Source: Desulfovibrio piger (lineage in GTDB: Bacteria > Desulfobacterota > Desulfovibrionia > Desulfovibrionales > Desulfovibrionaceae). Taken from it: DNA of 64,000 nucleotides. This document shows, in pieces, positions 9,049 through 64,000 of this stretch (its first letter is position 1; the number at the start of each line of letters is the position of its first letter). The stretch spans positions 1,716,501 to 1,780,500 of the forward strand of contig NZ_LT630450.1 in NCBI RefSeq assembly GCF_900116045.1. The letters run 5' to 3'. Under the pieces are notes generated by a model that was not told the DNA's origin, searched no databases, and saw only the letters and a list, made by a program, of their open reading frames with translations. Made by a program: the position numbers and the translations under genes.

Positions 9049-12000
9049 ATGCCCTTCTTCCCCAAGCCCCGGCGCCGACCCGCGCCCGCCGATACCGACA
9101 TCAGCACCGCCGACGCCGCGCCCCGTCCTTTCCGTCCGCGTCCGGCCACCGGCACGCAGCCTGCCGACCGTCCCCGCTTCCAGCGCGGGGAACGCAACGA
9201 ATCTTCTTTCCGGGACGGCCGTCCCCGCCGTGAAGACCGCCCCCGTGACGGACGCCGCCCTGCCGGGGACTTCCCGCGTGCCGGGCGTCCCGCGGACCGC
9301 CGCGATGCCCGCCCCGGCTCCCGGTCCCGCAACGAGGCGTTCCAGGACCCGTGGGTGGACGGCCAGCCCCGCTTCCTGCCCATGAGCCGCGCCGAGATGC
9401 AGGCCCTGGGCTGGAAGGAACTGGACGTGCTGCTGGTCAACGGCGACGCCTATGTGGACCACCCGGCCTTCGGGCCCGTGCTGCTGGGCCGCTGGCTGGT
9501 GGCCCACGGTTTCCGCGTGGGCATCGTGGCCCAGCCCCGCTGGCAGTCGCCCGACGACCTGCTGGTCATGGGCCGTCCCCGGCTTTTCGCGGGCGTCAGC
9601 GCGGGCGCGCTGGACTCCATGCTGGCCCACTACACGGCCTTCCGCAAAAAGCGCCACGATGATGCCTACACCCCCGGCGGCAAGGCCGGCGCGCGTCCCA
9701 ACCGCGCCTGTCTGGTCTATGCCAACCTGGCCCGTCAGGCCTTCCCCGGCCTGCCGGTGATCCTGGGCGGCATCGAGGCCTCGCTGCGCCGCACCACCCA
9801 TTACGATTTCTGGACCGACAGCCTGCGCCGCTCCATCCTGCTGGACGCCAAGGCCGACCTGCTCATCTACGGCATGGGCGAGCTGGCCATGCTGGAATGC
9901 GCCCGCCGTCTGGCCGAAGGCAAGAGCCTGCACGGCATCGACGGCACGGCCTGGCTGGCCAAAGTGGACGAGCACAACGTCCCCGTGGACCTGCCCGAAG
10001 AATGGCTCGACCTGCCGCGCATGCAGCTGCCCTCCCACGAGGCCGTGCAGGCCGAGGCCACGGAGCTGCTGCGCCTGACCCAGATGCTGGAGCAGCAGGT
10101 GCACCGCCAGAACGCCTGGGCCCAGCAGATGGTGGGCGACCGCGCCCTGGTGCTGGCGCCCCCGGCCCGGCCCCTGACCACGGAAGAGATGGACCAAATC
10201 TACGCGCTGCCCTACGCCCGCGCGGCCCATCCCCGCTACCGCGAGCCCATCCCTGCCGACGAGATGCTGCGCACCAGCATCACCAGCCATCGCGGCTGCG
10301 GCGGCGGCTGTTCCTTCTGCTCGCTGGCCCTGCACCAGGGGCGCCGCATCAGCTCCCGCAGCCAGGAGTCCATCCTGGCCGAGGCCCGCACGCTGGTGGC
10401 CCAGTCCCGTCGCGGCCAGGTGGCCATCTCCGACGTGGGCGGCCCCACTGCCAACATGTGGCAGGCCCACTGCGCCCTGGATGACGCCACGGCCGCCAGG
10501 GCGGAGCCCGGCGCGCGGCCTTCGTCCCGCTGCCGCCGCAGCAGCTGCTGTTACCCCACGGTCTGCAAGTCCTTCATCACTCCGCAGATGCAGCATGTGG
10601 GCCTGCTGCGCGAGGTGGCGGCCCTGCCCGGCGTGCGGCAGGTGCGCGTGGCCAGCGGCGTGCGCGCCGACCTGGCCCTCAACGATCCTGAGGCCCTGGC
10701 GGCCTATACCGGCGAATTCACCGGCGGCCAGCTCAAGGTGGCCCCGGAGCACTGCGCCGCCCGCGTGCTGGACCTGATGCGCAAGCCGGGCATGGAAGTC
10801 TTCGAGGCCTTCCTCCAGAGCTTCATGGAGCAGAGCCGTCGGGCCGGACGCGAGCAGTATGTGGTGCCCTACATGATGAGCGCCTTCCCCGGCTGTACGG
10901 ACGAGGACATGCACGAGCTGGCCCGCTGGCTGCAACAGCGCCACTGGAGCCCGCAGCAGACCCAGTGTTTCATCCCCACGCCGGGCAGCATCGCCACGGC
11001 CATGTATTACTGCGGCCGCAACGAGGACGGGGAAGAGATCTATGTGGCCCGCAGCGATGCCGACCGCCTGCGCCAGCACCGCATCCTGATGCCCGATTTC
11101 GGCCGCATGCCCGAACGCGGCGGCCATGCCGATGCTGAGGATGCGGGCGAAGGCCACCGCCGCGAGCCCCGCCGGGAAAACACCACCGAGCGCTGGCGCG
11201 ACGAGCGCCGCGGCGCTGACGGCCTGGCCCCCCGGCACGAGGGACGCCGCGCCTTCCGGGAAGACCGCACGCCGCCCTTCCCCCACTTCGATGACGAGCG
11301 GGACGAAGCCCCCCGCCGCGATGTCCGCCGTCCCGACCGCGACGGTTTCCGCAGGCCCGCCTTCCGGCAGGATGCCGACAAACCCTTCCGTCCCCGCCCC
11401 TTCCCCGAAGCCGCCCGTGACGCTGACGAGGCCCCGCAGGCCCGCCCGTCCTTCCGCAGGGACGGGCAGGACGAACGCCCCTTCCGTCCCCGTGCCGACC
11501 GTTTCGTGGACCGCGAGGGAGAAGAAGGGCAGCGTCCCTTCCGGCCGCGCCGCGATGACGAAGAACGGCCTTTCCACAAGGACGGCTTCCGTCCCCGGCG
11601 CTTTGACCATCGCGACGGCAGCGATGGGCAGGAGGCCTGGAAGCGCTCCCGTCCCTTCCCCCGCTTCGATGACGAGCGGGACGAGGCCCCCCGTCGCGAT
11701 GTCCGCCGCCCCGACCGCGACGGTTTCCGCAAGCCCGGCTTCCGGCAGGATGCGGACAGGCCCTTCCGCCCGCGTCCCTTCCCCGGTGCCGCCCGTGACG
11801 CTGACGAGGCCCCGCAGGCCCGCCCCTCCTTCCGCAGGGACGGGCAGGACGAACGCCCCTTCCGTCCCCGTGCCGACCGTTTCGTGGACCGCGAGGGAGG
11901 AGAAGGGCAGCGTCCCTTCCGGCCGCGCCGCGATGACGAAGAACGGCCTTTCCACAAGGACGGCTTCCGTCCCCGGCGCTTCGACCATCGCGACGGCAGC

Positions 12001-12621
12001 GATGGGCAGGAGGCCTGGAGGCGCTCCCGTCCCTTCTCCCGCTTCGATGACGAGCGGGACGAGGCCCCCCGCCGCGATGTCCGCCGTCCCGACCGCGACG
12101 GTTTCCGCAAGCCCGCCTTCCGGCAGGATGCGGACAGGCCCTTCCGTCCCCGCCCCTTCCCCGACGCCGCCCGTGACGGTGACGAGGCCCCGCAGGCCCG
12201 CCCCTCCTTCCGCAGGGATGGTCAGGGCGAACGTCCCTTCCGTCCCCGTGGCGACCGTTTCATGAGCCGCGATGGGGAAGAGGGGCAGCGTCCCTTCCGC
12301 CCGCGTCGCGATGACGAGGGACGGTCTTTCCGCAAGGACGGTTTCCGTCCCCGGCGCTTCGACCATCACGACGGCAGCGAAGGACAGGGCGAACGGGAAC
12401 GCCGTGCGCCTTTCCCCCGCTTCGATGACGGGCAGGGCGGCGCGCCCCGCCGCGATGTCCGCCGTCACGACCGCGACGGTTTCCGCAAGCCCGGCTTCCG
12501 GCAGGATGCCGACAAGCCCTTCCGCAAGAACACGTTCCGCAGGGACGGCAAGCCCGCCTTCGGCTCCCGCCGTCGGGACAGGGGCTTTGACGGCCCGGCG
12601 CTGAACGACGACGAAGAATGA
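9049..12621 (+). CDS. ygiQ: YgiQ family radical SAM protein with long repetitive Arg-rich tail
   Basis: A 1190-residue protein. Residues 1-100 are an arginine/proline-rich low-complexity arm. From about 110 to 690 lies the YgiQ core: an N-terminal domain (WKELDVLLVNGDAYVDHPAF), the radical-SAM CxxxCxxC at C417, C421 and C424 followed by LALHQGRRISSRSQ, a second cysteine cluster (CCYPTVCKSF), and APEHCAARVLDLMRKPG. The family reaction is unknown. Usual YgiQ proteins are about 600-750 residues; this one adds some 440 residues of charged tail built from 126-residue repeats. The start at 9049 is supported by AAGGA and the loss of sense further upstream. The tail resembles RNA-binding Arg/Asp-rich extensions of RNA helicases, an inference. 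Confidence 0.88.
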   Translation: MPFFPKPRRRPAPADTDISTADAAPRPFRPRPATGTQPADRPRFQRGERNESSFRDGRPRREDRPRDGRRPAGDFPRAGRPADRRDARPGSRSRNEAFQDPWVDGQPRFLPMSRAEMQALGWKELDVLLVNGDAYVDHPAFGPVLLGRWLVAHGFRVGIVAQPRWQSPDDLLVMGRPRLFAGVSAGALDSMLAHYTAFRKKRHDDAYTPGGKAGARPNRACLVYANLARQAFPGLPVILGGIEASLRRTTHYDFWTDSLRRSILLDAKADLLIYGMGELAMLECARRLAEGKSLHGIDGTAWLAKVDEHNVPVDLPEEWLDLPRMQLPSHEAVQAEATELLRLTQMLEQQVHRQNAWAQQMVGDRALVLAPPARPLTTEEMDQIYALPYARAAHPRYREPIPADEMLRTSITSHRGCGGGCSFCSLALHQGRRISSRSQESILAEARTLVAQSRRGQVAISDVGGPTANMWQAHCALDDATAARAEPGARPSSRCRRSSCCYPTVCKSFITPQMQHVGLLREVAALPGVRQVRVASGVRADLALNDPEALAAYTGEFTGGQLKVAPEHCAARVLDLMRKPGMEVFEAFLQSFMEQSRRAGREQYVVPYMMSAFPGCTDEDMHELARWLQQRHWSPQQTQCFIPTPGSIATAMYYCGRNEDGEEIYVARSDADRLRQHRILMPDFGRMPERGGHADAEDAGEGHRREPRRENTTERWRDERRGADGLAPRHEGRRAFREDRTPPFPHFDDERDEAPRRDVRRPDRDGFRRPAFRQDADKPFRPRPFPEAARDADEAPQARPSFRRDGQDERPFRPRADRFVDREGEEGQRPFRPRRDDEERPFHKDGFRPRRFDHRDGSDGQEAWKRSRPFPRFDDERDEAPRRDVRRPDRDGFRKPGFRQDADRPFRPRPFPGAARDADEAPQARPSFRRDGQDERPFRPRADRFVDREGGEGQRPFRPRRDDEERPFHKDGFRPRRFDHRDGSDGQEAWRRSRPFSRFDDERDEAPRRDVRRPDRDGFRKPAFRQDADRPFRPRPFPDAARDGDEAPQARPSFRRDGQGERPFRPRGDRFMSRDGEEGQRPFRPRRDDEGRSFRKDGFRPRRFDHHDGSEGQGERERRAPFPRFDDGQGGAPRRDVRRHDRDGFRKPGFRQDADKPFRKNTFRRDGKPAFGSRRRDRGFDGPALNDDEE
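11287..12530 (+). repeat. In-frame 378-bp tandem repeats within the YgiQ tail
   Basis: The landmark TTCGATGACG recurs at 11287, 11665, 12043 and 12421, an exact 378-bp (126-codon) period. Three full units and about 110 bases of a fourth are present. Units are nearly the same at nucleotide level over long stretches, especially the second and third. Each unit encodes RFDDERDEAPRRDVRRPDRD, then RPFRPRPFP and RFVDREG-type segments. Confidence 0.92.
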
Positions 12622-50639: not shown

Positions 50640-50882
50640 GAGTGTTGCTGAGGGGAGGGGGACCCCATCGCTGCTGTCGATGCCCGTAGCTTCCTTTGTC
50701 GCAACGGGCACGGCTTTGCAGGCCGTATTTTGAGGGGAGGGGGGACCCCTCGCGCTGCTGTCGATGCCCGTAGCTTCCTTTGTCGCAACGGGCACGGCCC
50801 TGCGGGCCGCCATTCGGTCGCTGCTGGCGCGAGAGGGGTCCCCCCTCCCCTCAAGCTCCCCTCCCCCTCCCCAGCGCGCTTT
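50640..50882 (+). repeat. Family A hairpin with two nested REP-like (family B) units
   Basis: A left arm TTGAGGGGAGGGGGGACCCC near 50730 and its complement GGGGTCCCCCCTCCCCTCAA near 50836 flank a family B unit (GCCCGTAGCTTCCT..GTCGCAACGGGC at 50766-50793) that lies in the place of the loop. A second B unit at 50682-50709 precedes it. The element ends in CCCCAGCGCGCTTT at 50882. It sits immediately 3' of thiH. Confidence 0.85.
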
Positions 50883-59638: not shown

Positions 59639-60223
59639 CATGGGATCGGGGGCCCGCGCCGCCGGTCACGGGCGCCCCCCGGCGCGCACGGCGCAGGGCA
59701 ACATCATCGACTTTCTTGAAATCTGCGATGAGGCGCGCACGGCGCAGGGCCCTCAAAAGGCCGGATGCGCTCACGGCAGGCAGAACGCTCCCTCCCTTTC
59801 CCCGGGAGCTTTTTCCGGGCCCCCCTGCCGCAGGGGGCCCTGCCCCGGGAAAGGCGACATCCCCGGACCAGGGCGCAGGGAGCGCAGCGGCGGGGACCGT
59901 TTTTTGACCATGCCCGCTTTTTTCTTGCAGCGGCCCTGCTCCCCATAGTATTGGGAGGCGGGACGGACGGCCCTCCGGGCCCGGCCAGTTCCGGGAAGCC
60001 GGAAAAACAATGCCCGGAACGCTGTCCTGGCCGCCGGGACAACCGGCCGCCAGCGGTCCTCCGCCGTCCCGGCGGCGCGGAGGTGCGGGGCTGTGCAATA
60101 TTTTTGTCCCCCCGTATGGCTCCGGCAGGCCTCATGTAAAAAAAATTAAACGGCCCTTCTGCCTGAATCAAAATAAAAAACAGTAAAAACAGTAAGATAG
60201 AAAAATATTCCGAGCTGGATATC
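59639..60223. other. Intergenic region with an 18-bp direct repeat
   Basis: Nearly 600 bases without a supportable gene. GCGCGCACGGCGCAGGGC appears twice, near 59682 and 59731, about 49 bases apart. From 60125 the composition becomes AT-rich, with CAGTAA-like motifs near 60180-60195, ahead of a sigma-54 promoter. Confidence 0.5.
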
Positions 60224-60240
60224 TTGGCACGCCTTATGCA
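60224..60240 (+). promoter_or_regulatory. Sigma-54 promoter of the agmatinase-family gene
   Basis: TTGGCACGCCTTATGCA matches YTGGCACGNNNNTTGCW at all fixed positions but one, with exact GG-to-GC spacing. It lies 90 bases before the start codon. Confidence 0.85.
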
Positions 60241-60280
60241 GTAAGCTAAGTACCTTCCTTTCTTACTGACAGTTCAACCG

Positions 60281-60312
60281 AAACGGCCTGCCCCCCCAGC
60301 AGGCCGTTTTTC
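60281..60312 (+). promoter_or_regulatory. Terminator-like leader hairpin upstream of the agmatinase gene
   Basis: ACGGCCTGC and GCAGGCCGT form a perfect stem around a C-rich loop and run into TTTTTC. It lies between the sigma-54 start and the gene, so it would act as an attenuator. A 7-bp inverted repeat CAGTAAG / CTTACTG at 60239-60268 sits just before it. Confidence 0.6.
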
Positions 60313-60329
60313 TGTCTGGAGACACGAGC

Positions 60330-61250
60330 ATGTCCAGCCCCGACACCGTCTGTCATCAGGAATTCGACGAAAGCCGTTTCCTGTCCTCGGAATACGTACC
60401 AGCCCGGCCGGAAAAGGCCGCCTTCCACATCATCCCCGTCCCGCTGGAGCAAAGCGTCTCCTACGGCGGCGGTACCGCCCGCGGGCCGGCCGCCATCCTG
60501 GCCGCCTCGCAGCAGCTGGAGGCCTGGGACGGCATCAGCGCCCCGGGAGAAGCGGGCCTGTACACGGCCCCTGCCGTGGACTGTGACGCCCCCATCGGGA
60601 CCGTGCTGGAGCGCATCGAGGCCGCCACGGCCCATGCCCTGCACTGCAAGGCCCTGCCCGTCATCCTGGGCGGTGAGCATACCGTGACCCTGGGCGCCCT
60701 GCGTGCCCTGGCCGCCGAGGCCGCGCGCACGGGCGAGCCCTTTGGCGTGGTGCAGTTCGATGCCCATGCGGACCTGCGTTCCCAGTATGAGGGCTCCATC
60801 TATTCCCACGCCAGCGTCATGCACCGGGCCGTGGCCGACCTGGGCCTGCCGCTGGCCCAGTTCGCCATGCGCGACTTCTGCCGCGAAGAAGTGGACGTGC
60901 GCCGCCGGTACAATGTCTTGCACTACGATGCCGACATCCTCTTCCGCCAGGGCCTGCCGGAACGGCCCCTGCCCGAGGATTTTCCCCGCCGTCTTTACAT
61001 CACCTTCGACGTGGACGGCCTGGACGCCTCGCTGATGCCCGCCACGGGCACGCCCTCGCCCGGCGGCCTGTTCTGGCATCAGGCCCTGCTGCTCATCGAG
61101 CGCTGCCTGAAGGGCCGCAGCATGGCCGGCATGGACGTGGTGGAGCTGGCTCCCCTGCCGGGCCTGCACCACGCGGACTTCACCGCCGCCAAACTCACCC
61201 ACGCCCTCATGGGCTTTGCCCAGCGCGCCGGTCTGCCCCGCAAGGCATAA
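60330..61250 (+). CDS. speB: Arginase/agmatinase family ureohydrolase
   Basis: A 306-residue manganese enzyme. Metal ligands are in GGEHT, FDAHADLRSQYEG (D-x-H-x-D) and ITFDVDGLDASLMPATGTPSPGG (D-x-D). The pattern fits agmatinase best, which turns agmatine to putrescine and urea; guanidinobutyrase and related enzymes cannot be excluded. CTGGAGA precedes the ATG. Transcription from a sigma-54 promoter with a leader hairpin suggests control by nitrogen or by polyamine-related signals. A family B repeat array follows. Confidence 0.88.
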   Translation: MSSPDTVCHQEFDESRFLSSEYVPARPEKAAFHIIPVPLEQSVSYGGGTARGPAAILAASQQLEAWDGISAPGEAGLYTAPAVDCDAPIGTVLERIEAATAHALHCKALPVILGGEHTVTLGALRALAAEAARTGEPFGVVQFDAHADLRSQYEGSIYSHASVMHRAVADLGLPLAQFAMRDFCREEVDVRRRYNVLHYDADILFRQGLPERPLPEDFPRRLYITFDVDGLDASLMPATGTPSPGGLFWHQALLLIERCLKGRSMAGMDVVELAPLPGLHHADFTAAKLTHALMGFAQRAGLPRKA

Positions 61251-61299
61251 CGGCCGGAGCCCCCTTTGGGAGGAAAAGGCCCCCGCAACGCTGCCGCCG

Positions 61300-61641
61300 A
61301 TGCCCGTAGCTTCCTGCGTCGCAACGGGCGCTCCCCTCCGGGTCGCCATCCGGTCGCATCTCTGCTGGCGATGCCCGTAGCTTCCTGCGTCGCAACGGGC
61401 GCTCCCCTCCGGGTCGCCATCCGGTCGCATCTCTGCTGGCGATGCCCGTAGCTTCCTGTGTCGCAACGGGCGCTCCCCTCCGGGTCGCCATCCGGTCGCA
61501 TCTCTGCTGGCGATGCCCGTAGCTTCCTGCGTCGCAACGGGCACTCCCCTCCGGGTCGCCATCCGGTCGCATCTCTGCTGGCGATGCCCGTAGCTTCCTG
61601 CGTCGCAACGGGCACTCCCCTCCGGGTCGCCATCCGGTCGC
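61300..61641 (+). repeat. Tandem array of five 71-bp REP-like (family B) units
   Basis: GCCCGTAGCTTCCT starts at 61302, 61373, 61444, 61515 and 61586, an exact 71-bp period. Each unit has GCCCGT - ACGGGC arms, then CTCCCCTCCGGGTCGCCATC and CGGTCGC. Units differ at few positions (a T in the third, A for G after the arm in the last two). The flanks, CCCCCTTTGGGAGG before and CCTCCCCCTC with CGGCGCGCGTTG after, look like the ends of a family A hairpin. It lies just 3' of the agmatinase gene. Confidence 0.95.
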
Positions 61642-61683
61642 TGCCTCCCCCTCAAACATCCCCTTTCCCGGCGCGCGTTGCCT

Positions 61684-61715
61684 GCCTGTGTCCTGAAACG
61701 GGACACAGGCTTTTT
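61684..61715 (+). terminator. Terminator beyond the repeat array
   Basis: GCCTGTGTCC / GGACACAGGC with a short loop and TTTTT, followed by CTGTTTT. It ends transcription from the agmatinase gene and array. Confidence 0.88.
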
Positions 61716-61879
61716 CTGTTTTGCGGCATTTTCCCCCCGCGCTCCTCCTGCACGCGTCAGAGACCCGCTCCCTGTCCTGCCCTCATGGCTATCCCGGCTT
61801 TTTTGCTGGACTTTTATCCCTGTCTGTGCCATAGGAAACGGGCCGTCGACCTGACGGCCATGTCACGCAAGGAGTTCCC

Positions 61880-61936
61880 ATGTCATCCGACAGTCCCCTC
61901 CCTTCCAGTAGCCAGGTATCTGTCCCGTCACGCTGA
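61880..61936 (+). CDS. Short leader ORF 1 (18 residues)
   Basis: AAGGAG sits 6 bases before an ATG that opens MSSDSPLPSSSQVSVPSR. It is Ser/Pro-rich with one acidic residue ahead of PLP. Length and content recall magnesium leader peptides, but it may be chance. Confidence 0.3.
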   Translation: MSSDSPLPSSSQVSVPSR

Positions 61937-61992
61937 CCGCCTGCCTTGCGTCCCCCTTCCCGCAGGCAGTGCCAGCCCTGCGAGGAGGTCCC

Positions 61993-62145
61993 ATGTCCCG
62001 TTCCCGCATCTTCCTGCCGGCCGTCCGGCAGCACGTCCCCGTCCGTGACCGGATCCTCGTCCGGGCACGCCGTCATGTCCTGCATCCTTCCCGCTCGTCC
62101 ATCCCTGTCATGGGCCGGACATCCGTGATGCGCGCTGCCTGCTGA
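61993..62145 (+). CDS. Short ORF 2 in the mgtE leader (50 residues)
   Basis: GAGGAGG precedes the ATG by 5 bases. The product (MSRSRIFLPAVRQHVPVRD, then an Arg/His-rich chain) is very basic and has no recognisable domain. It could be a leader peptide or a remnant. Confidence 0.3.
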   Translation: MSRSRIFLPAVRQHVPVRDRILVRARRHVLHPSRSSIPVMGRTSVMRAAC

Positions 62146-62374
62146 CAGGCCGTCACCTTCCTTTCGCCGTCCTCCGCCGGGCCCCGTCCCGCGGGATGGC
62201 CTTTCCCTCATCGTTCATCGTTGCCTGCGGCGCCAGGCCCGCATGGGATCATTCTGCGGCAATGGCCTGCGCACCTCCTGTACCGGTGCGTAACGGCATG
62301 CCCGCCGTCATGCCGTGCGTCTACGTCCGCCGGAAAGGCTTTTCACGAACCCCTCTGACCAAAGGAGCCGACGC

Positions 62375-62527
62375 ATGGACAGTCACCCTGCCCCCCTCCC
62401 GTCGTCCGCTGCCGCGCCTGCTTCCGCACGCGCCTGCCCCCGTCATCCCAACCCTGGTGAGGTCTGTCATGATCCTCAAACAACCACAGCAGGCCCGCCG
62501 GGCCGCCCTGGGCGCCACCGTCCATGA
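62375..62527 (+). CDS. Short ORF 3 in the mgtE leader, MgtL-like start
   Basis: AAAGGAG precedes the ATG by 7 bases. The product begins MDSHPAPLPSSAAAPASAR and is proline-rich throughout (50 residues). E. coli MgtL begins MEPDPTPLP: methionine, an acidic second residue, P5, P7, L8 and P9 coincide. The ORF lies about 160 bases ahead of mgtE, in the same transcript if the leader is read through. Confidence 0.4.
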   Translation: MDSHPAPLPSSAAAPASARACPRHPNPGEVCHDPQTTTAGPPGRPGRHRP

Positions 62528-62666
62528 CCCGGACCTGATCCATTCCGTACCCCGGACGCATAACGGCTTTCTCCTCTTCCGTGCCCGGCCCCATGACCCC
62601 GGATCGCGGACAGCCTTCGGGCGGCGCCTGCCGTCCTTCTGCTGCCGTCCCCATCCCGCACGCTGA
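62469..62666 (+). CDS. Short ORF 4 in the mgtE leader (65 residues)
   Basis: Overlaps ORF 3 in another frame; GTGAGG precedes the ATG. Product MILKQPQQARRAALG... is basic with two late cysteines, ending 20 bases before mgtE. No domain recognised. It might couple translation to mgtE, or be a chance frame. Confidence 0.25.
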   Translation: MILKQPQQARRAALGATVHDPDLIHSVPRTHNGFLLFRARPHDPGSRTAFGRRLPSFCCRPHPAR

Positions 62667-62685
62667 AGAAAAAAGGAGAATGCCC

Positions 62686-64000
62686 ATGATCCGCGAGAAC
62701 CTGCTGCGCACTGTGCGCGACCTGTCCGCCCGCCACGACACCACGGCCTTTGCCGCACTGGCGGAAAGCGTTCATCCCTCCGACATGGCCGAGGCCCTGG
62801 AGAGCCTGAAGAGCCGTGATGCGGCCCGCCTGCTGCCCTGCCTGAAGGCCGGGACGCTGGCCGACGTGTTCGTGTATTTTTCTGAGGAGCACCAGAGCCG
62901 CCTGCTGCGGGAACTGCCCCGCGAGACCGTGGTGGCCCTGTTCGAAGGCATGGCCGCCGACGAGCGCGTGGACCTGTTCCACGACCTGGACGCGGCCGCC
63001 CGCCAGCGTCTGCTGTCCGCTCTGGCCCACGGCGAACGCGAGGACATCCTGCGCCTGGCCGCCTATGCCGAAGGCAGCGTGGGTTCGGTGACCACCTCGG
63101 ACTATGTGTCCGTGCTGCCGGACATGCGCGTGGCACGGGCCCTGGCCCATGTGCGGGCCACCGCCGCCGGCAGGGAGACCATCTACGTCATCTATGTGCA
63201 GGACAGGGAGGGGCATCTGTGCGGCACCCTCTCCCTGCGCGACCTGCTGCTGGCCGATGATGCCCTGGCCATCAGGGACATCATGCGCCGCGACCCCGTG
63301 TTCGCACGGGCCCAGTGGCCCCGGAGCAGGGCTTCCGAACTCATCGGCCGTTATGACCTGCTGGCCCTGCCCGTCATCAACGGTGGAGAAAAGATGGTCG
63401 GCATCGTCACCGTGGACGACGCCATGGACATCGAAAAGCAGGAAGACGCCACCCAGCTGGCCCGCTTCGGCGGCACGGTCGGCAGCGACGACACCGATCT
63501 GGACATCCTGGCGTCCCCCTTCCGCACGATGTTCCGCGTGCGCGTGTTCTGGCTGGTGCTGCTGACCCTGTTCGGCGTCGTCACCAGCACCTTCGTGGCC
63601 GCGCAGGAAGAGATATTGTCACAGGTCATCGTGCTGGCGGCCTTCATCGCGCCCATCGTGGACATGGGCGGCAATGCGGGCAGCCAGTCGGCCACCCTCG
63701 TCATCCGGGCCATGGCCCTGGGCGACGTGCGCCTGTGCTGGCAGGACGTCTGGCGCGTGGTCCGGCGCGAGCTGCCCGTGGCCGCCGCCCTGGGCCTGGT
63801 GGTGGCCGGCATGGAGACCGTGCTTGCCCGGTTCTCCAAGGGCATCGGTCTGGACGTGCTGCTGGTGGTGGGCCTGAGCATGCTGGTCTGCACCGTGCTG
63901 GGCGGCATCATCGGTGTGCTCCTGCCCTTCGCGGCCCGGCGCATGGGCACGGACCCCGCCACCCTGTCCTCGCCCCTCATCACCTCCGTCATGGATCTGG
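62686..64000 (+). CDS. mgtE: Magnesium transporter MgtE (3' partial)
   Basis: The first 438 codons of MgtE; the frame is open to the window end. An N-terminal superhelical domain (SDMAEALESL, LLRELPRETVVALFEGMAADERVDLFHDL) is followed by paired CBS domains (about 130-250), which sense cytosolic magnesium, and then membrane helices, including APIVDMGGNAGSQSATLVIRAMALGD with the conserved pore signature. It imports Mg2+ as a gated homodimer. AAAGGAGA gives a 7-base spacing to ATG 62686, better than to ATG 62680. Confidence 0.95.
   Translation, partial: MIRENLLRTVRDLSARHDTTAFAALAESVHPSDMAEALESLKSRDAARLLPCLKAGTLADVFVYFSEEHQSRLLRELPRETVVALFEGMAADERVDLFHDLDAAARQRLLSALAHGEREDILRLAAYAEGSVGSVTTSDYVSVLPDMRVARALAHVRATAAGRETIYVIYVQDREGHLCGTLSLRDLLLADDALAIRDIMRRDPVFARAQWPRSRASELIGRYDLLALPVINGGEKMVGIVTVDDAMDIEKQEDATQLARFGGTVGSDDTDLDILASPFRTMFRVRVFWLVLLTLFGVVTSTFVAAQEEILSQVIVLAAFIAPIVDMGGNAGSQSATLVIRAMALGDVRLCWQDVWRVVRRELPVAAALGLVVAGMETVLARFSKGIGLDVLLVVGLSMLVCTVLGGIIGVLLPFAARRMGTDPATLSSPLITSVMDL

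Follow-up and report, generated by a model that had tools for sequence, protein, structure and literature searches.

A candidate translation-coupled leader with short acidic reading frames ahead of mgtE in Desulfovibrio piger and other Desulfobacterota

The mgtE locus and its upstream region

The window (the whole stretch of 64,000 nt of Desulfovibrio piger DNA analysed here) ends inside mgtE, a gene for an Mg2+ transporter with Pfam matches to MgtE_N, CBS and MgtE on residues 1-438. An intrinsic terminator (61684-61710) forms the 5′ boundary of the mgtE leader, and approximately 970 bases without an ordinary gene separate the two. The initial annotation had described this stretch as C-rich, G-poor and carrying several short ORFs with good ribosome sites, and the description holds. 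The sense strand has a skew of -0.24 (C/G 1.63; mgtE itself approximately 0), and we have identified four ATG ORFs of at least 8 codons led by a Shine-Dalgarno (SD) sequence in 61840-62672, whereas 1000 dinucleotide shuffles gave 0.049 on average and never as many as four. Two of the four have an acidic, polar start (shuffle mean 0.0). ORF1 at 61880 and ORF3 at 62375, the latter starting MDSHPAPLP, lie and begin as had been proposed. The following features were assigned:

61807..61835, + strand, probable promoter: -35-like TGGACT, 17-nt spacer, -10-like CATAGG; weak, aligned by eye
61839..61859, + strand, putative 5′ hairpin of the transcript, GGCCGTC-GACCT-GACGGCC; by eye, from the sequence and relatives
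61869..61874, + strand, SD of ORF1, AAGGAG; overlaps CGCAAGG (61866-61872), able to pair with 61944-61950
61880..61936, + strand, ORF1, candidate leader peptide MSSDSPLPSSSQVSVPSR; kept in 20/20 leaders of sufficient length
61944..61966, + strand, hairpin CCTTGCG...CCCGCAGG, directly 3′ of the ORF1 stop and before the ORF2 SD; aligned in 20 leaders
61983..61989, + strand, SD of ORF2, AGGAGGT; from the sequence
61993..62145, + strand, ORF2, 50 codons; start hydrophobic in many relatives, little conservation of the peptide
62362..62367, + strand, SD of ORF3, AAGGAG; from the sequence
62375..62527, + strand, ORF3, candidate leader peptide MDSHPAPLP..., 50 codons; overlaps the ORF4 start
62469..62666, + strand, ORF4, 65 codons; ends 20 nt before the mgtE start
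62564..62580, + strand, predicted anti-SD of the mgtE site, CGGCTTTCTCCTCTTCC; falls within the ORF4 codons for GFLLF
62674..62680, + strand, SD of mgtE, AGGAGAA, predicted hidden site; from the sequence and its complementarity to the anti-SD
62686..64000, + strand, mgtE, Mg2+ transporter, running past the window end; 460 aa in full (Pfam; length from L001)

The promoter was placed solely by the by-eye alignment, in which TTGACA-N17-CATAGG-like or GGCTA-like sites stand at the matching place of other leaders; a sigma-70 consensus scan of the window returned no promoter there. The stem of the 5′ hairpin is retained, with changes, in D. piger (G069), G091, G154 and G114, and is absent or different elsewhere. 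No Pfam family matched ORF2, ORF3 or ORF4 at E<=0.001 (ORF1 is too short for the scan) and no Rfam family matched 60000-64000 at E<=1. An M-box or other Rfam element in the leader was ruled out by this lack of a covariance-model match.

Elsewhere in the window, two tandem arrays (61284-61641, 71-bp unit x 5.0, in the spacer after a gene ending at 61250; and 50649-50809, 84-bp unit x 1.9) have a common core, GATGCCCGTAGCTTCCT..GTCGCAACGGGC, and look like a dispersed intergenic repeat. Another array (11275-12525) has a 378-bp unit in 3.3 copies with 91% matches.

Distribution of MgtE and its leaders

Of the 79 genomes searched in the genus, 11 encode MgtE of the window type (E<=1e-60), as do 19 of 247 in the family (E<=1e-90). 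Most other searched genomes of the genus encode a more distant MgtE (~27-30% identity to the query). Twelve upstream regions of such distant MgtE were read, some from the genus and some from the order (L017-L022, L024-L027, L029 and L030), and eleven of them are without an SD-led ORF of the leader kind; L029 has an SD-led ORF starting MRENQGHM, which passes the looser rule used later and has no acidic cluster. The plasmid collection gave no MgtE protein match at E<=1e-40 and no megablast match to 61700-63999.

The MgtE of Silanimonas lenta (Gammaproteobacteria) is 67% identical to that of the window, and the MgtE of other families of the window's own order, among those compared, reaches up to 40%. 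Lateral transfer of the Silanimonas gene is likely, as judged from these sequences. Upstream of it we noted by eye, in this one case, a GTG ORF (xGQDSSDSCSP, at -1193) and, at -913, MDPDPGRLR preceded by an SD, with an apparent longer gene between those ORFs and mgtE.

We read the leaders of 21 Desulfovibrionaceae and, in addition, the one of Silanimonas lenta; one of the 21 (G191) has 405 nt of upstream sequence and therefore stands outside the ORF1 count of 20. ORF1 was found in 18 of the 20 by the SD rule alone and in G092 and G223 by the start motif. It has 16-20 codons, and residues 2-5 after M read [SP][SA][DE][SN] in all 20. In 12 of the 20 its SD region pairs with the post-stop stretch at p<0.05 (p=0.037 in the window), and the stretch after ORF1 folds better than shuffles, by a script score, at p<0.05 in 11 of 20 (window p=0.06). 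An SD-led ORF2 start lies 96-116 nt past the ORF1 start in the leaders where both could be read; pairing of the ORF2 SD with the stretch upstream of it reaches p<0.05 in 8 leaders of the 20 (p=0.153 in the window). Late in ORF2, a block near CATCCTTCCCGCTCGTCCATCCC (62085-62112; peptide HPSRSSIPV-like) is shared by D. piger and G154, and parts of it are kept in G114 and G098.

The ORF3 start had drawn attention through its residue-by-residue agreement with the proline-rich MgtL peptide (P5, P7, L8 and P9), and this agreement is not kept across the leaders. Only 3/21 leaders have a proline-rich start: the window's own and those of the nearest two relatives, D. piger (G069) and G091, the last with P in place of L8. 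On this count we dropped the motif as a key feature. Residue 2 is acidic in 19/21 leaders (MDSHS, MESHS, MDNHS, MENPD and others; the exceptions are G093 and G007), so that the conserved part of the start is the acidic residue and not an MgtL-like proline run. The notion of MgtL-like leader peptides therefore stands for the acidic N-terminal residue and its conservation, with ORF1 and ORF3 starts kept in other genera, and is not supported for the proline run.

An SD-led ORF occurs at the place of ORF4 in 12 of 13 g1/g19/g25 leaders (G007 excluded), G093 being the exception; ORF4 overlaps the mgtE start in G097 and G067. In genus g54 ORF4 is absent and ORF3 overlaps the mgtE start. Pairing of the window's anti-SD with the mgtE SD beats shuffles (p=0.015). 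In the 13 g1/g19/g25 leaders without G007 it reached p<0.05 in 11 and p=0.06 in the remaining two; p<0.05 was not reached in G007, and was reached in 1/7 g54 leaders and in 12/21 overall.

We have also scanned 288 family genomes with the two start patterns. The ORF3-type pattern gave 18 places (1 for the pattern reversed) and the looser ORF1-type pattern 41 (2 reversed). Among the 18 are seven mgtE leaders and one sequence ahead of a broken mgtE (G094); the 41 include 17 leaders of found mgtE genes, one near a contig end (G021) and one of a lost mgtE (G090). Some of the remaining matches were opened: L074, L075, L079, L081, L089, L108, L110 and L112 are starts of long frames, and L076, L077 and L080 are short frames. 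Leaders are kept despite mgtE decay (L071, L040, L049). G090 retains ORF1 and the ORF2 start with mgtE absent, G094 retains ORF3 ahead of mgtE in pieces, and the mgtE match of G091 covers 365/438 residues with an internal stop.

Upstream ORFs across Desulfobacterota

A simple form of the leader is found in the phylum, with a single upstream ORF (uORF) 120-260 nt ahead of mgtE that begins with acidic residues and in most cases has an AGT serine codon. With the SD demand relaxed, its starts include MSESDGSHSC, MSDSDGSHSC, MNDSDSSSL, MDPDGSRP, MDDGSSST, MEEGGSTR, MIDPDSRR and MDLPSS; DPD starts are seen in L007, L009, L011, L146, L156 and L158. We scanned 93 further mgtE upstream regions of the order and the phylum, 14 and 79 (of 80) from two fetched sets; some mgtE places, mostly with E from 1e-62 to 1e-50, lie outside the scan. 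Of the 67 upstream regions of close mgtE genes 43 matched a fixed uORF rule, compared with a shuffle mean of 7.1 (60 runs, highest 17) and 6 on the reverse strand. When an AGT codon was also required, 36 of 67 matched (shuffle mean 1.0, highest 7; reverse strand 2). Upstream of the 26 distant mgtE genes the rule gave 5 matches vs 3.2 in shuffles and 4 in reverse, and with AGT 0 vs 0.5 and 0.

The rule was derived from this first set and then applied unchanged to 15 held-out loci (L204-L208 from an earlier order search, L203 and the rest from other searches), where it was matched in 10; eight of these were judged clear, L198 and L205 were set aside as unclear, and the other five gave no match. 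All 15 belong to one phylum and several are kin of first-set loci (L199, L206, L207), so they serve as a check and are not a wholly independent sample. In the first set 47/93 regions matched; L016, L183 and L184 were removed as chance matches, and L005, L007, L008, L116 and L120-L122, missed by the rule and sharing their starts with neighbours, were added by eye, which gave 51 loci. Where a locus had several candidates, one was kept by a score weighting acidic and polar residues, ATG, SD and AGT. L118 was dropped (no start codon), and L061 and L062, with partial mgtE matches, stand outside the leader set; L061 was scanned separately.

In the resulting 59 uORFs acidic residues occupy position 2 in 58%, position 3 in 68%, position 5 in 39%, position 4 in 15% and positions 6-25 in 0-15%, an enrichment that is partly built in, as uORFs were chosen partly for acidic, polar starts. 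They sit at positions 2, 3 and 5 regardless of uORF length. The acidic cluster thus adjoins the start codon, the place that early ribosome destabilisation would need. The preference for AGT serine codons at the uORF start is seen in L004, L136, L154 and others, some of which have a small hairpin, GGCAGUCAUAGUUGCC, there.

Competing pairings around the mgtE ribosome site

In the single-uORF leaders the mgtE SD (segment 3) is complementary to a segment soon after the uORF stop (segment 2), e.g., GGUUCACCUCC...GGAGGUGAACC, and segment 2 can equally well pair with the uORF's 3′ half (segment 1), to which it too is complementary. The pairing of segments 1 and 2 reached p<0.05 in 32/51 loci against codon-shuffled uORFs, and that of segments 2 and 3 in 32/51 against shuffled segments, with 19/51 missing in each case; the loci are related and not independent, so combined p-values for the 51 are inexact. 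In the eight clear held-out loci the 1:2 pairing was found at p<=0.05 in seven and the 2:3 pairing at p<0.05 in all eight. The best 1:2 and 2:3 duplexes share segment 2 nucleotides in 57/59 loci.

Covariation was counted in rows picked by eye for similar segments (20 rows for the larger 2:3 set, 11 for the smaller 2:3 set and for 1:2), so that the counts lean towards structures. For the 2:3 pairing, both-side changes occur in 5/11 pairs, which 0/500 shuffles reached (3/11 pairs and 15/500 shuffles in a smaller set), and for the 1:2 pairing in 4/12 pairs (6/500 shuffles); a count of further 1:2 pair types was less telling (73/500 shuffles).

In equilibrium folding of the full leader the mgtE SD is mostly hidden, with a mean accessibility of 0.18 vs 0.13 when uORF bodies were shuffled, and accessibility exceeds that of the shuffled control in 31/44 loci (Wilcoxon p=0.0009). 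We rejected this as proof of a switch: the effect is small, and a free uORF that raises SD access only slightly counts against one. Also counting against it, the evidence for a segment 1 within a uORF comes from relatives and not from the window's own short ORF1, and the mgtE SD lacks an anti-SD match in 6/7 g54 leaders.

Comparison with known Mg2+-responsive leaders

The comparisons below follow the accessible parts of the cited papers. Acidic residues destabilise ribosomes, and Mg2+ matters for MgtL (PMC11552253, PMC11282234). Acidic codons of mgtQ promote translation of mgtB, in the Salmonella mgtCBRU operon, via alternative stems (PMC8092293). The mgtQ-mgtB and mgtE leaders are alike in having a short uORF, led by an SD and with acidic codons close to the start, and alternative stems in which the ribosome-binding site (RBS) of the transporter is hidden; mgtQ-mgtB acts on translation, with the RBS freed by destabilised translation (PMC8092293). 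An upstream segment able to hide the RBS was found in 32/51 relatives, in 8/8 clear held-out loci, in 11/13 leaders of the window group without G007, and in 1/7 of g54. A competing stem overlapping the uORF was likewise found in relatives (32/51; 4/12 covarying pairs) and is weaker in the ORF1 module of the window. They differ in that MgtB imports Mg2+ using ATP and that mgtQ, of 8 codons, is located between two genes (PMC8092293), whereas the present leaders precede MgtE in another phylum and have uORFs of 16-62 codons with the AGT-serine mark, and four tandem ORFs in the window. We assume an independent origin of the two.

MgtL-mgtA of Salmonella and E. coli also has an acidic leader peptide of an Mg2+ transporter, and uORF translation represses that transporter, but it acts by Rho-dependent transcription termination and carries an EPDP motif (PMC11552253, PMC11282234); the proline match of the window to MgtL is not conserved in relatives. 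Short leaders with SD-hiding hairpins occur in many relatives, which points towards control of translation, so that the closest described device is mgtQ of Salmonella mgtB (PMC8092293) and not MgtL of mgtA.

The SRC-65-1 'mgtE motif' of Thioalkalivibrio, likewise an RNA motif upstream of mgtE, places the SD and the AUG where a large stem has its base; as described in the accessible part of the paper, it is a riboswitch candidate in one genus with no uORF named, and we compared it by this description (PMC11109978). It may be related to the present leaders. The M-box (ykoK), which includes mycobacterial mgtE-type M-boxes, is a Mg2+-responsive leader of MgtE-type transporters but an RNA aptamer binding Mg2+ (PMC12810186), and the window gave no Rfam match. 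Titles and abstract beginnings of open-access literature, with subscription papers mostly outside this search, yielded no mgtE leader peptide of this kind; only two mgtE leader controls were met in these partial sources, the M-box riboswitch and a single orphan motif.

Proposed mechanism and alternatives

Sequence establishes that the ORFs exist and are conserved, that two pairings compete in relatives, and that the mgtE SD has a complementary segment by which it is hidden. On balance they lean towards the stretch being a transcribed mgtE 5′ leader that works as a translation-coupled switch. The best reading, by analogy, would be a translational attenuator like Salmonella mgtQ-mgtB, with Mg2+ probably sensed through ribosome drop-off on acidic codons. 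We infer that the leader is transcribed and its ORFs translated. A ribosome would initiate on a uORF with acidic first residues. If it completed the uORF, it would cover the 3′ half (segment 1), segment 2 would pair with the mgtE site (segment 3), and mgtE would be off. In low Mg2+, unstable ribosomes would drop off at the acidic N-terminus, segments 1 and 2 would pair, and the mgtE site would be free; that abortion should free the site, and thus the direction of the switch, is taken by analogy with mgtQ-mgtB and MgtL. The window would be an elaborated form, with ORF1 (own SD), hairpin and ORF2, followed by ORF3, ORF4 and the anti-SD inside ORF4. It seems to repeat the single-uORF design, with weaker support than in single-uORF relatives, and the order of steps among its four ORFs would follow from that likeness.

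A ribosome positioned at the uORF stop would mask some of segment 2, and the mgtE site could then open rather than close. Completion of the uORF would then melt the anti-SD near the stop, mgtE would need full translation of the leader peptide, and acidic starts would lower mgtE when ribosomes are unstable. This positive coupling fits with the anti-SD pairing beginning 0-23 nt past the uORF stop in 54/59 loci, with the last uORF overlapping the mgtE start (ORF3 in g54, where it suggests such coupling; ORF4 in G097 and G067), and with the effect of covering 12 nt past the stop, which raised SD access in 28/44 loci (Wilcoxon p=0.02; 0.18 vs 0.13). It gives, however, no reason for the conserved pairing of the uORF end with segment 2 (32/51 loci, covariation) and would turn off an importer at low Mg2+, and we regard it as a serious though unlikely rival.

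Less probable still is that the uORF start is kept as RNA or codons, e.g., as a slow AGU serine codon or an RNA element, rather than for a destabilising peptide. The codon usage speaks for it: in the 59 uORFs AGT makes up 86/144 serine codons in residues 2-11 vs 7/141 in the rest (AGT was weighted in candidate choice), and codon 5 of ORF1 is AGT in 19/20 leaders and AAT in one. Yet in the ORF1 codon table, for which ORF1 was located with a loose start motif, codons 2-4 of the 20 sequences vary mainly at third positions, the kind of bias that the initial annotation had proposed to look for: codon 2 is TCN (all four forms) or CCN, codon 3 is TCN or GCN, and codon 4 is GAC, GAG or GAA, with amino-acid changes confined to D/E, S/P and S/A. 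This variation points to a peptide-level constraint and opposes a purely RNA or DNA explanation; constraints on peptide and on RNA or codons may both be true.

An MgtL-like device, in which Rho termination in the C-rich leader depends on translation of the leader ORFs, appears decidedly improbable. C is in strong excess over G in the leaders of the window's group and of genus g54, a gap of ~230 nt between ORF2 and ORF3 has no SD-led ORF in the window, and MgtL and CorL offer precedents in the accessible part of PMC11552253. But the skew is near zero (-0.01 to -0.03) in leaders G092, G095 and G097, which have the same ORFs, and the short leaders with SD-hiding hairpins in many relatives speak against it as well. 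Rho termination may act together with a translational switch. An unrecognised Mg2+ riboswitch that hides the mgtE SD, with the ORFs incidental, would agree with a structured, covarying SD hairpin and with the Thioalkalivibrio motif, filed as a riboswitch candidate with its SD in a large stem (accessible part of PMC11109978), but is very improbable given the lack of an Rfam match in the window and a uORF start that is conserved and far above chance.

Implications

MgtE ranks among the main types of Mg2+ transporter in bacteria. A broader possibility, which we put forward tentatively, is that the translational attenuator favoured above is an old, phylum-wide Mg2+ sensor of MgtE, in which the ribosome itself would sense Mg2+ and an AGU-marked acidic start would abort translation at low Mg2+ and flip a three-segment switch; it would have grown into a cascade of four ORFs in Desulfovibrionaceae, have reached Silanimonas with mgtE, and would explain the Thioalkalivibrio candidate. 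The conservation of the AGT serine codon offers a fresh clue that can be put to the test. If ribosome instability does sense Mg2+ for MgtE in a second phylum, dozens of natural leaders would become available for learning which nascent-chain starts make ribosomes fall off, and the principle of MgtL and mgtQ would be convergent and general.
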